From NCBI GenBank assembly GCA_030949325.1, contig JAUZSQ010000089.1, positions 1-64,000 on the forward strand: a stretch of 64,000 nt of DNA, given 5' to 3'. Positions 9,254 to 12,711 of this stretch are shown one piece after another. Source of the stretch: Sulfurovum sp. GTDB lineage: Bacteria; Campylobacterota; Campylobacteria; Campylobacterales; Sulfurovaceae. A program made the translations under genes and the position numbers. A model generated the notes under the pieces. It was not told the DNA's origin. It did no database searches and worked only from the letters and a program-made list of their open reading frames with translations. Numbering within the stretch: the first letter of the stretch is position 1; every line of letters begins with the position of its first letter.

Positions 9254-10782
9254 ATGGCAAAGCGTACGGCGATTATTGATATTGGTTCCAACTCAGCAAG
9301 ACTGGTCATTTTTGAAAAGACAAGCCATTATGGATTTCACCTTATTTGTGAACAAAAATCCAAAGTACGTATTGGTGAAGGTGCCTATGCCAAAGAGGGT
9401 TATTTGCAGCCCATTGGTATCAAACGAGCCTTTCTTACTCTCAAAGCCTTTTTATATACTATCAAAAAATATGAAGCCCACAAAACCCTTTGTGTGGCTA
9501 CTTCGGCTATTAGAGATGCACCCAATGGCAAAATATTTGTCGATTGGATATACCAAGAACTAGGGCTACCTATCAAAATTATTGATGGACAAAAAGAAGC
9601 CAAATATGGTGCTATCTCTGCGTCTAATCTCTTGCCTATTGATGAAGGTATTAGCATTGATATTGGTGGAGGTTCTTCGGATATGGCTTTACTCAAACAG
9701 GGTCAAATTATAGAAACCTATTCTCTTAATCTTGGTACTGTGCGTCTGAAAGAGCTCTTTTTTGACCATGAAAAAGACAATCCTTATGCTAGGGAGGAAG
9801 CCAAAGCCTATATCAAAAATGAACTTCAAAATCTTCCTTCTACCTTTAGACATGCTTTAGCTATTGGTATTGGTGGTACGGCAAGGACACTTAGCAAAGG
9901 GATTATGAAGCTTTCTAGCTATCCTTTGGATAAGCTTCATGCCTTTTCGTATTCTATCGAAACCTATCATAAGTATCTTCATGCGATTCCTCTGTCTTCC
10001 ATGAAAGACCTCAAACAATTTTCACTCAAAAAAAACCGTTATGACACCATACGAGAAGGGACACTTATCTTTAATCAAATCCTCTCTCATATCGGAGCCA
10101 AGAGGGTAATGTGTTCTTCTGTAGGTGTCAGAGAGGGCGTATTTTTGGAACACTTACTCAAAGAGGATAGGCTTAAATTCCCCGACCAAATAAATCCTAG
10201 TGTTGCTTCTATTTTAGACAGGTTCAAACCTCTTGTATGGAGTGAAAAAAAACGAAAAAATAGACTCAAAATTGCTTCTGAACTCTATGAAGTATTGACT
10301 CCCGTCATTGAGTGTGAACAAAATTACAAAAAAAAGAATTACGTTGGGCATTACAACTTTCCAACATAGGCAAAACACTCACCATCTACAAAACACACCA
10401 ACACGCCTTTTATATCGCCATGCACGAACTCAATTATGGATTTACCCATAGGCAAATGCTCTTGATTTCTGCATTGTTAAGAATGCATGGTCGTGTACTA
10501 CTGTATAAACCTCTATATGAACAATATAAAGCACTTCTCCCTCCAAAGCAAACCTTGGCTTGGTTGTCCTTTATTTATTCACTGTCGGTCTTTTTACATG
10601 AAGCTTCTAATGATGCGAATATTCACTTTAGCTATGAGAATAATACCTTACATATCACAGCAGACAAATCCCTCTACCTTGCCAATGAGCGTATTCACAC
10701 CATACAAAAGCCTCTTGATTTTGAGATTGTCATAGAAGATGCTTCTAGTGTACCTAGCCATAGCGATTTGGGTATATTATGA
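9254..10782 (+). CDS. Ppx/GppA family phosphatase, long form with HD-like C-terminal domain (one frameshift)
   Basis: Exopolyphosphatase or guanosine pentaphosphate phosphohydrolase. ASKHA-type motifs: IIDIGSNSARLVIFE, CVATSAIRDAPNG, SIDIGGGSSDMAL and AIGIGGTARTLSKG. The first frame ends at 10369. The C-terminal domain (KELRWALQLSNIGKTLTIY, then HELNYGFTHRQMLLISALLR, HD-like) continues in another frame; one missing A in the A8 run at 10328-10335 joins them into about 509 residues. ATG 9254 follows GTAGG. A shorter paralogue lies at 30742-31644. The stop overlaps the MNT-HEPN start (ATGA). Confidence 0.88.
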
Positions 10783-11519
10783 GGTTATCAAATAAAGAAA
10801 TGAATGCAATCAAGCATAGTTTTGATAATATATTTAATAGTGGTGAGATTTATATTTTTGGTTCGCGTGTCGATGATAGTCAGAAAGGTGGAGATATAGA
10901 CCTTTATATTTGTACAGAAGAAACAGAGAATCTAAGAGAGAAAAAGATAGATTTTTTGACAGAGCTAAAAGAATGCATAGGTGACCAAAAGATAGATATT
11001 TTGATATCAAGAGATAAAAGTAGAACGATTGAAAAAGAAGCATTATATCAAGGAGTAGTATTGGATACCAAAATATTAAAATTACAAAAATATTTAAATG
11101 AGTGTAGTAAACATAAACTAAGAATAGAAAAATCGTATGCAAAAGTGAAGCATATCTTTCCTCTATCTGCACGAAGGTATGAAAACTTAGAAGATGAGGA
11201 AGTTGAAGCTATTGACCAATATCTTTTTAGATTCTCTAAACTTCAAGATACTTTGGGCAAAAGAGTATTTAAATTGATACTCTCTGAGTATGAAGATGGT
11301 ATTGAACAGCTCACTTTCTTGGATATACTCAATGGATTAGAAAAAATAGGGGCATTGGAAGATGTCAATATATGGAAAAGGTTGAGAGATATTAGAAACG
11401 ATATTTCACATCAATACGATGATGAACCCGAAGATATGGCAGAAGCTTTAAATAATATTTTTGCATACAAAGAGGAACTTATCGGTATTTTTGATAAGAT
11501 AGAGTATTTTATCAAATAG
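10779..11519 (+). CDS. Single-chain MNT-HEPN protein (nucleotidyltransferase fused to HEPN toxin-type domain)
   Basis: 246 residues. The N-terminal part is a minimal nucleotidyltransferase: IYIFGSRVDDSQKGGDIDLYI contains GS followed by DxD, as in MntA antitoxins that AMPylate their toxin. The C-terminal part (about 110-246) is a HepT/HEPN-like helical domain (DQYLFRFSKLQDTLGKRVF) with the RNase motif R-x4-H-x-Y in RDIRNDISHQY. Known HepT-MntA systems encode the two as separate genes; here both lie in one uninterrupted frame. The start overlaps the Ppx/GppA stop by 4 bp. Since the sequence contains indels, an artefactual fusion of two overlapping genes cannot be excluded. Role: a toxin-antitoxin or defence module (inference). 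Confidence 0.75.
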   Translation: MRLSNKEMNAIKHSFDNIFNSGEIYIFGSRVDDSQKGGDIDLYICTEETENLREKKIDFLTELKECIGDQKIDILISRDKSRTIEKEALYQGVVLDTKILKLQKYLNECSKHKLRIEKSYAKVKHIFPLSARRYENLEDEEVEAIDQYLFRFSKLQDTLGKRVFKLILSEYEDGIEQLTFLDILNGLEKIGALEDVNIWKRLRDIRNDISHQYDDEPEDMAEALNNIFAYKEELIGIFDKIEYFIK

Positions 11520-11541
11520 GGCTTGAATTTGAGAGGAAGCA

Positions 11542-11568
11542 AAGATACTAAACTAGGTTTAGTATCTT
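11542..11568 (+). terminator. Hairpin after the MNT-HEPN gene
   Basis: A 12-bp stem (AGATACTAAAC pairing with GTTTAGTATCT plus one outer A-U pair) with loop TAG begins 22 bp after the stop codon. There is only a weak T-rich tail, so this is a probable but not classical terminator. Confidence 0.5.
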
Positions 11569-11639
11569 AGTCTACTATTTTACCCATAAAAACTTCACTC
11601 ATTTAAGTTATTATTTAGTGAAATATTGTAAAAATACAC

Positions 11640-11744
11640 TTGTGTAGATGCATACCATTTACTAGAGAGAGTTAGGTCGGAAACTTATTACTCCTTCTTT
11701 TTTCAAAGCTTCTGTATCCTTTTGGGTATAGGAGCTTTTTTTTT
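11640..11744 (+). ncRNA. Candidate small antisense-like RNA ending in a strong terminator
   Basis: There is no ORF of note here, yet a strong intrinsic terminator closes it at 11744. Two internal segments, AGGTCGGAA (11674-11682) and CTCCTTCTT (11691-11699), are exact complements of TTCCGACCT (11820-11828) and AAGAAGGAG (11800-11808) in the next small mRNA. Those target segments are the early codons and the ribosome binding site. The order of the segments is right for antiparallel pairing of two plus-strand RNAs. The 5' end is not defined; a weak -10-like TATTGT at 11624-11629 is the best promoter candidate. Confidence 0.5.
11707..11744 (+). terminator. Strong rho-independent terminator
   Basis: AGCTTCTGTATCC and GGGTATAGGAGCT form a 13-bp RNA stem (three G-U pairs) with a TTTT loop, followed directly by a run of nine T. 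The G-U pairs work only in the plus-strand RNA, which fixes the direction. No protein gene lies just upstream on this strand. Confidence 0.8.
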
Positions 11745-11755
11745 GGGTGTAAGGG

Positions 11756-11784
11756 GAGATTGTCACATCATGATGTACAGTCTC
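11756..11784 (+). promoter_or_regulatory. Leader hairpin upstream of the small peptide gene
   Basis: GAGATTGT pairs with ACAGTCTC and, after a bulged C, ACATC pairs with GATGT around a 2-nt tip. This stable hairpin stands 15 nt before the ribosome binding site of the 24-residue ORF and could be the 5' end structure of its mRNA. Confidence 0.5.
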
Positions 11785-11814
11785 ATGGGATAAGGAAAGA
11801 AGAAGGAGGACAAT

Positions 11815-11889
11815 ATGCATTCCGACCTGCATACTATCGTGTATCTTGTGATAGCTATATCTTATATAGTTCTTGCATTTTTGCATTAA
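11815..11889 (+). CDS. 24-residue hydrophobic peptide, candidate type I toxin
   Basis: ATG 11815 is preceded by AGAAGGAGG (11801-11809) with 5-nt spacing, one of the best ribosome binding sites in the window. The peptide begins MHSDLH, continues TIVYLVIAISYIVLAFL (a single membrane span) and ends in H. Size, hydrophobicity and the complementary upstream RNA resemble type I toxin-antitoxin loci (TisB/IstR, ShoB/OhsC or Zor/Orz style), but I recognise no sequence family. It lies in an accessory patch beside an MNT-HEPN gene and a broken protease gene. Toxicity and regulation are inference. Confidence 0.5.
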   Translation: MHSDLHTIVYLVIAISYIVLAFLH

Positions 11890-11895
11890 AAAAGT

Positions 11896-11915
11896 CAGAG
11901 GATTTAAATCCTCTG
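11896..11915. terminator. 20-bp palindrome after the small peptide gene
   Basis: CAGAGGATTTAAATCCTCTG is a perfect inverted repeat 6 bp after the peptide stop. It is a probable transcript end hairpin for the small mRNA, although no long T-run follows. Confidence 0.45.
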
Positions 11916-11991: not shown

Positions 11992-12711
11992 TTATTCAAA
12001 ATTTCTGTTAGTTCTATTGGTATCAAAAGTATAATCTATTTCATGGACATCTAAAAACATTGTAGCAACATTTGCTTTTATAGCTAGATTAACATTTTCT
12101 GCTAATTTAGCATAAATAACACCTACAATACTACCTGTATTATCTAAAAGAGGTCCTCCACTATTACCAGACTGTACAGGTGCAGTTAATTGTAGTGTTG
12201 TAGTATCATTAAATAAATCTGTAAGTGAACTAACATTTCTACCACTTCTGAATTTTAGATATGTTTCACTATGTTCAGTGGATGTTAATATTGCTAAATA
12301 ATTTGTCCTGACAATAAATTTTATTTTTGCAGAAGAGATAACTCCATCTCTTATAATGTTAATATTACGACATGAATCAACAACATGTTGATTTGTGATT
12401 ATATGTATAGGATACAACTTCTTTTTTAGGTTTTTCTTGTTTTGTATAGGTATAATCATATATAGGTATTGATAATCTTCCAACAGGATATCCCTGTTGA
12501 TCTTTATACTGACTGCTTATAGGCAGTTTAATTTCTACTCGACGTTTTTTTGACTTTCCAAAAACTAATACACTTCGAATATCAATAAAAAGATTATTAA
12601 TATCTGTTGGTACAACAATTATATTAAATCTACTCTTTGGTAGATAACGGGGTATGTGCCATATTTTAGAGAGAGTAGTTTATACTTGTAGCTGTCTTTT
12701 TGGGAGTCATT
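11992..12711 (-). pseudogene. Trypsin-like serine protease, frameshifted and lacking the catalytic Asp
   Basis: The intact C-terminal frame (12483 to 11992) has ITNQHVVDSC (catalytic His), SGNSGGPLLDN (catalytic Ser) and a final beta-barrel strand. The catalytic Asp position reads TNYLAIL where the family has NDLAIL, so Asp is replaced by Tyr. Upstream, coding sequence runs on in another frame (PTDINNLFIDIRSVLVFGKS, then KRRVEIKLPISSQYKDQQGY) to a possible ATG at 12711, with at least two frame breaks. The usual GSGF segment before the His motif is not seen. It is probably a decayed S1C-type protein. Function unknown. Confidence 0.55.

Follow-up and report, generated by a model that had tools for sequence, protein, structure and literature searches.

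The antitoxin of a type I toxin-antitoxin pair is described as an RNA from the opposite strand that overlaps the toxin gene or lies nearby (PMC12390103). In tisB/IstR-1, shoB/OhsC, zor/orz and dinQ/agrB, the antitoxins are divergently transcribed and pair within the 5' UTR of the toxin mRNA, outside the start site and the coding sequence (PMC4147584, PMC3567139). The aapA/isoA pairs of Helicobacter pylori, with the 30-residue toxin AapA1, are also under RNA control of translation (PMC8322730). In type III loci, an antitoxin RNA, an intrinsic terminator and the toxin gene follow each other in that order on one strand (PMC4147584). Phages P1 and P7 carry the antisense RNA C4 in the icd operon; its a' and b' loops, when paired with the target mRNA, partially occlude the ribosome-binding site, and the Icd protein stops host cell division (PMC5320573, PMC8198154). 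Type I pairs have mostly been found by similarity to known ones, and their antitoxins have been sought on the opposite strand (PMC12390103). The cassettes described below have been missed by both routes, because they encode a tiny peptide with no database entry and a same-strand RNA; we found no description of this peptide/antisense family in open-licence papers.

The first cassette was found in a 64,000-nt stretch of a Sulfurovum sp. contig (JAUZSQ010000089.1), referred to as the window. We propose that an antisense RNA probably silences a membrane peptide in a type I toxin-antitoxin-like manner, within a self-contained cassette associated with mobile elements. The layout, with the RNA upstream on the same strand and a terminator between the two parts, sets the cassettes apart from the type I pairs known so far and recalls type III loci and P1 c4/icd. 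The window copy is chromosomal and surrounded by housekeeping genes; it sits between a fused nucleotidyltransferase-HEPN gene (10779-11519, + strand) and a trypsin-like gene fragment (11992-12483, - strand), followed by ilvC (- strand). The coordinates of its features are listed in Table 1. Rereading of the letters (blocks, Shine-Dalgarno region, ATG, T9, stop codon and palindrome) showed that all coordinates given in an earlier sequence-only reading were exact. The peptide, MHSDLHTIVYLVIAISYIVLAFLH, has 24 residues, and its ATG is preceded at 5-6 nt by a AGAAGGAGG site. Among the ilvC neighbourhoods scanned, it is the only small ORF behind a Shine-Dalgarno (SD) site that exceeds a Kyte-Doolittle value of 2.1 over 15 residues.

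Table 1. Features of the peptide/antisense cassette in the window.
Feature	Position	Strand	Remarks
Predicted antisense RNA	11641..11744	+	5' end approximate; extent deduced from the layout, with a weak promoter-like stretch (near 11624-11640) on one side and the terminator on the other
Antisense block 1, AGGTCGGAA	11674..11682	+	Read directly; exact complement of codons 2-5 (11820-11828); duplex prediction
Antisense block 2, CTCCTTCTT	11691..11699	+	Exact complement of the SD region (11800-11808); longest exact block of the window
Intrinsic terminator, stem-loop and T9	11705..11744	+	Predicted energy of -20.8 kcal/mol for the hairpin ahead of the T run; T9 at 11736-11744
Leader of the peptide mRNA, 70 nt	11745..11814	+	Contains GGTGTAAGGGGAG, similar to GGTGTAGGGGAG in G247
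Shine-Dalgarno region AAGAAGGAGG	11800..11809	+	Read directly; AAGAAGGAG at 11800-11808
ORF of the 24-residue single-span membrane peptide	11815..11889	+	ATG at 11815, stop codon ends at 11889; family alignment
Target at codons 2-5, TTCCGACCT	11820-11828	+	Sequence read directly
3' palindrome CAGAGGATTTAAATCCTCTG	11896..11915	+	Equivalent in position to the post-stop hairpin of other cassettes

According to RNAduplex, pairing of the upstream segment to the start region of the peptide ORF has a predicted energy of -31.5 kcal/mol, compared to -15.8 +/- 3.5 kcal/mol in dinucleotide shuffles (z -4.5, 0/300 as good). Of 102 windows of 50 nt around the locus, the start region is also the best target. 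The two 9-nt exact complements reported earlier, to the SD region and to codons 2-5, were confirmed to the base.

Searches within the genus returned no further cassette. A tblastn search of 78 genomes, including that of the window, found no peptide homologue in the other 77, and the sole weak match has another sequence context and lacks a terminator, an SD-preceded ORF and an antisense segment. The ilvC neighbourhoods of relatives contain no cassette, and a DNA similarity search against 60 relatives gave only short chance matches. An order-wide search (Campylobacterales) returned low-scoring ORFs of the same size, of which those in G111, G397, G247, G113 and G141 are preceded at 48-64 nt by a T-run terminator. 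The profile built from these five ORFs retrieved G385, G205 and G391, and a peptide pattern retrieved L135, L136, L137, L141, L144 and L146 from IMG/VR, together with L142, which is identical to G205. A second profile added G488 and two tandem copies in G102, and a search by the leader motif alone, which takes in neither the peptide nor the antisense segment, added L157, L158, L159 and L166. In total, 21 cassettes with complete upstream regions, the window included, were collected from five families of the order and from phage contigs; removal of the near-identical sisters G141 and G385 left 19 non-redundant cassettes. They share a layout of a 5' segment, a strong intrinsic terminator, a leader of 47-81 nt and the SD/AUG of a single-span peptide. 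Several candidates were rejected. The weak profile matches L114-L130 have no short ORF behind a terminator, L160-L165 and L167 from a second motif scan are chance matches, and L152 (G098, contig C25 near 2289, same genus) is a short GCTACTT repeat array whose translation mimics the peptide profile. A degenerate start-peptide pattern gave one Aestuariivivens match, taken as chance, and no match in viral contigs, and tblastn with three peptides found none in plasmid and phage records. Rfam returned nothing above threshold; a sub-threshold L10 leader (E 0.28) and others were taken as chance.

All members of the peptide family are 22-39 residues long and have a single hydrophobic span, within the size usual for type I toxins, which are small hydrophobic peptides mostly under 60 residues. 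Alignment of 14 sequences showed that Y10, A14, Y17 and A21 (window numbering) are invariant, forming the pattern Y-x3-A-x2-Y-x3-A, a seven-residue Tyr/Ala repeat. In most close pairs the pN/pS of the ORF is about 0.2-0.3, which indicates that the peptide is under selection, while one diverged pair aligned without gaps, L137/G111, gives a value nearer 0.8. Thus the ORF, whose possible breakage in relatives had been named as a point to check, is intact and under purifying selection. The family has no match past the cut-off in Pfam, NCBIfam, PHROGs, PADLOC or PDB, and no sequence match to PDB chains at E <= 10.

All cassettes have a segment complementary to the ribosome-binding site, the start codon and the first codons; it lies some 50-90 nt upstream of the point where the T run ends. 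The paired letters are unrelated between families, yet the complementarity is kept, as seen in the exact complement blocks ATGTTCCCGCAT (G111), GCTACACTCTGC (G247), TCTCTTGCCAGA (L136), TATGCTACCAAC (L137), GCTAATCCACAGCG (G102b) and ATGGATTTCCACAC (L166). As the antisense segments are too diverged for alignment with MAFFT, permutation was used in place of column covariation. Summed over the cognate pairs of a 13 x 13 matrix, the energy is -515, compared to -300 +/- 25 after permutation (0/100,000). For the 19 non-redundant cassettes, the cognate energy is -639.9 against -368.2 +/- 21.5 permuted (z -12.7, 0/20,000), the cognate partner ranks first in 16/19 rows, and the duplex covers the start codon in every one of the 19. 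The longest exact complement averages 10.9 nt in cognate and 6.3 nt in non-cognate pairs. Among 15 non-redundant loci, the antisense/start-region pair has a z of -10.7, whereas 14 other region pairs show nothing comparable (|z| about 0-3); the sole notable one, antisense against the rest of the ORF (z -3.1), may reflect duplexes that extend into the ORF. The four cassettes retrieved by the leader motif alone served as a prediction test that all of them passed, each having a peptide and an exact complement of 11-14 nt. Moreover, L144 and L159, whose flanks are nearly alike, differ at codon 2 (CTT/ATC) and in step at the matching antisense positions (AAG/GAT), so that changes in both partners restore the pairing. 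The complementary segments are therefore retained at homologous loci far above background, a comparison that had been suggested from the window alone. Altogether, the cognate advantage over permuted pairs, the control pairs and the complementarity of the motif-only cassettes argue that the pairing between the antisense segment and the start region is almost certainly under selection.

In all 17 cassettes folded, the two parts are separated by a terminator, with a hairpin of -15.5 to -27.6 kcal/mol and then a run of 5-11 T, which extends to the family the strong plus-strand terminator first noted upstream of the window peptide. In 10/19 cassettes, compared to 1.3 expected, a perfect TATAAT occurs 88-128 nt upstream of where the T run ends; the window has a weak -10 only. 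By contrast, the 19 leaders contain no perfect consensus -10, and near-matches are fewer than in shuffles, so nothing in the sequence marks a separate peptide mRNA. The terminator between the parts, with TATAAT upstream and none in the leader, favours a real, separately terminated upstream RNA. Since the leader lacks a consensus -10, it is a serious possibility that the peptide mRNA arises, in the manner of type III loci, when transcripts started at the upstream promoter occasionally read through the terminator. Such a read-through RNA would silence itself, and silencing may thus act in trans, in cis or both.

The covariation fits pairing between two RNAs and pairing within one RNA alike. The locus might accordingly have one promoter and one RNA that mostly ends at the terminator, with no trans antisense RNA; rare read-through would fold its own 5' segment onto the SD/AUG, until a signal such as a protein, RNase cleavage or temperature opens the pairing. 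Both segments indeed lie on the same strand in nested order, no consensus -10 follows the terminator, and the minimum-energy structure of the full-length window RNA (-102.4 kcal/mol) contains the antisense/start-region pairing. However, the segments are separated in each cassette by a strong terminator with T5-T11, so that a working promoter would inevitably yield an abundant separate RNA. The terminator stem and the antisense blocks have no bases in common, nor was an antiterminator seen. We consider such a solely cis-acting leader unlikely. The sequence-only reading had offered a related alternative, a single leader RNA with an attenuator and intramolecular anti-SD pairing; its intramolecular pairing is conceivable, as both RNAs lie on one strand.

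The leaders also share a G-rich motif, GGTTGGGTTATGGGGT or GGGGCGGTATCTC, located between the terminator and the SD (for example L136:7088-7160), with an information content of 9.9 bits compared to 5.9-7.0 in shuffles (window excluded from the test); it pairs with neither the antisense RNA nor the 3' hairpin. A leader hairpin proposed earlier at 11756-11784 is predicted by folding in the window and is no feature of the family, as the other leaders differ there in sequence. Following the stop codon, the cassettes have a conserved hairpin (for example L136:6960-7028), often with CTAACCAAC on the loop side, which is possibly the mRNA end or a processing signal. At first glance the 3' palindrome of the window resembled a tRNA 3' end, but it is better explained by this hairpin, common in position across the family. 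A hok-like 5'-3' interaction between leader and 3' hairpin is unsupported (z +1.2).

Starting from the computed peptide family, terminator, pairing kept through sequence turnover and phage context, we infer that two RNAs exist, that they pair at least partly in trans and that the peptide is toxic. In the proposed mechanism, a constitutive-looking promoter would produce a short antisense RNA ending at the intrinsic terminator. This RNA would pair over the ribosome-binding site, the AUG and the first codons of the same-strand peptide mRNA encoded just downstream, so that ribosomes could not start on it. When the mRNA escapes the antisense RNA, the single-span peptide would most probably harm or de-energise the inner membrane, as type I toxins do. 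We have good confidence that antisense silencing would include at least some trans action, and the peptide is more likely than not a toxin. The activity of the window copy is uncertain, given its weak own promoter and its absence from the rest of the genus.

Most members lie in phages or prophages. Their neighbours include the major head protein (G111), the anti-repressor Ant (L136), the tape measure protein (L137), a RecE-like exonuclease (G113) and a minor head protein (L144), and an Ant-like protein adjoins the G391 cassette. The position and orientation vary among these contexts, as expected of an independent cassette. Two genomes, G102 (L153/L154) and G391 (L113), have tandem copies, spaced about 390-420 bp, whose antisense specificities have diverged; in the second copy of G391 the peptide is truncated and the antisense segment kept, as expected if the peptide is harmful. 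The phage setting at varying positions could also suit a peptide that is silenced in the lysogen and serves as an accessory function instead of a toxin, in superinfection exclusion at the membrane, modulation of lysis and lysogeny or regulation of a host membrane complex, and the Tyr/Ala heptad suggests specific helix packing over plain hydrophobicity. This role appears quite improbable in view of the start-site silencing, the tandem copies, the truncated copy beside an intact antisense segment and the small size, all of them usual for type I toxins; nor was a conserved phage partner gene found. Accidental complementarity, expected if any pyrimidine-rich sequence ahead of a terminator matched a purine-rich SD, is negligible: it might explain CTCCTTCTT alone, but the start-codon and coding-sequence blocks pair too, and shuffles, sliding targets, motif-only retrieval and the permutation test, which by itself refutes it, all speak against it.

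Our preferred reading, antisense silencing of a probable toxin, shares with tisB/IstR-1, shoB/OhsC, zor/orz and dinQ/agrB a single-span hydrophobic peptide and a nearby small RNA with short complementarity to the mRNA. As in type I pairs, complementarity and covariation give an RNA complementary to the putative toxin mRNA, which would presumably block its translation. The earlier idea of a silenced hydrophobic peptide/small-RNA pair gains support from the retained pairing, the purifying selection on the ORF and the terminator between the parts, whereas the layout is not that of the four systems it named: their antitoxins are divergent and leave the start site uncovered (PMC4147584), while here the tandem RNA covers the SD, the AUG and the first codons. 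The antisense segment lies upstream on the same strand in all cassettes examined, and by the usual opposite-strand description (PMC12390103) the cassette is therefore no standard type I member, though it most likely works like one. Compared to aapA/isoA, it has a hydrophobic inner-membrane peptide of similar size and RNA control of translation, but IsoA is an antisense RNA that forms an extended duplex, whereas the cassette RNA is not opposite-strand and its peptide matches no PDB chain. The order RNA, terminator, peptide gene on one strand is that of the type III loci toxIN, cptIN and tenpIN. Their RNA, however, is a tandem repeat that binds an RNase toxin protein, while the cassette RNA complements an mRNA; no repeat array was seen by eye in the upstream segments, and in place of an RNase there is only the 22-39-residue peptide, with no domain match above cut-off. 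The phage-borne P1 C4 RNA, which pairs at ribosome-binding sites, is the closest mechanistic precedent. It differs in its three conserved stems, RNase P processing, Rfam entry and 73-residue Icd; the Rfam C4 covariance model has no match in the window or 11 homologous loci, and no downstream same-strand ant gene as in P1/P7 was found.

The cassette joins type I, type III and P1 c4 logic. In environmental bacteria of the order, it is a candidate device for addiction or exclusion by phages. More tentatively, it may represent a new class of antisense-controlled toxin loci in phages of the order, in which a single promoter would yield an excess of terminated antisense RNA and rare read-through peptide mRNA, type I chemistry on a type III layout, with fast-changing specificity that gives each phage its own non-cross-reacting pair. 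If so, such pairs could serve phage-phage exclusion or plasmid-like addiction. The family provides 19 natural compensatory variants for testing the evolution of RNA pairs and their cross-talk, and its shared parts (terminator, G-rich leader, tiny Tyr/Ala-heptad ORF and upstream antisense segment) can guide further searches.

The genes flanking the window copy have features of their own. The trypsin-like fragment is an apparently truncated Trypsin_2-like protease ORF, weakly similar to the protease part of RT-Protease_XI defence proteins. In the gene on the other side, a nucleotidyltransferase of the MNT type is joined to a HEPN-like domain, an arrangement that recalls a fused type VII toxin-antitoxin pair, although the toxin-antitoxin family models score below their cut-offs. 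Its relatives are 74% identical in G019 and 69% in G069, and several broken copies occur across the genus, one of them on contig C28 of the window's own genome. Downstream of this gene, a strong hairpin, AAGATACTAAAC-TAG-GTTTAGTATCTT (11540-11580, + strand), is probably its own terminator and would insulate the cassette transcriptionally on that side.
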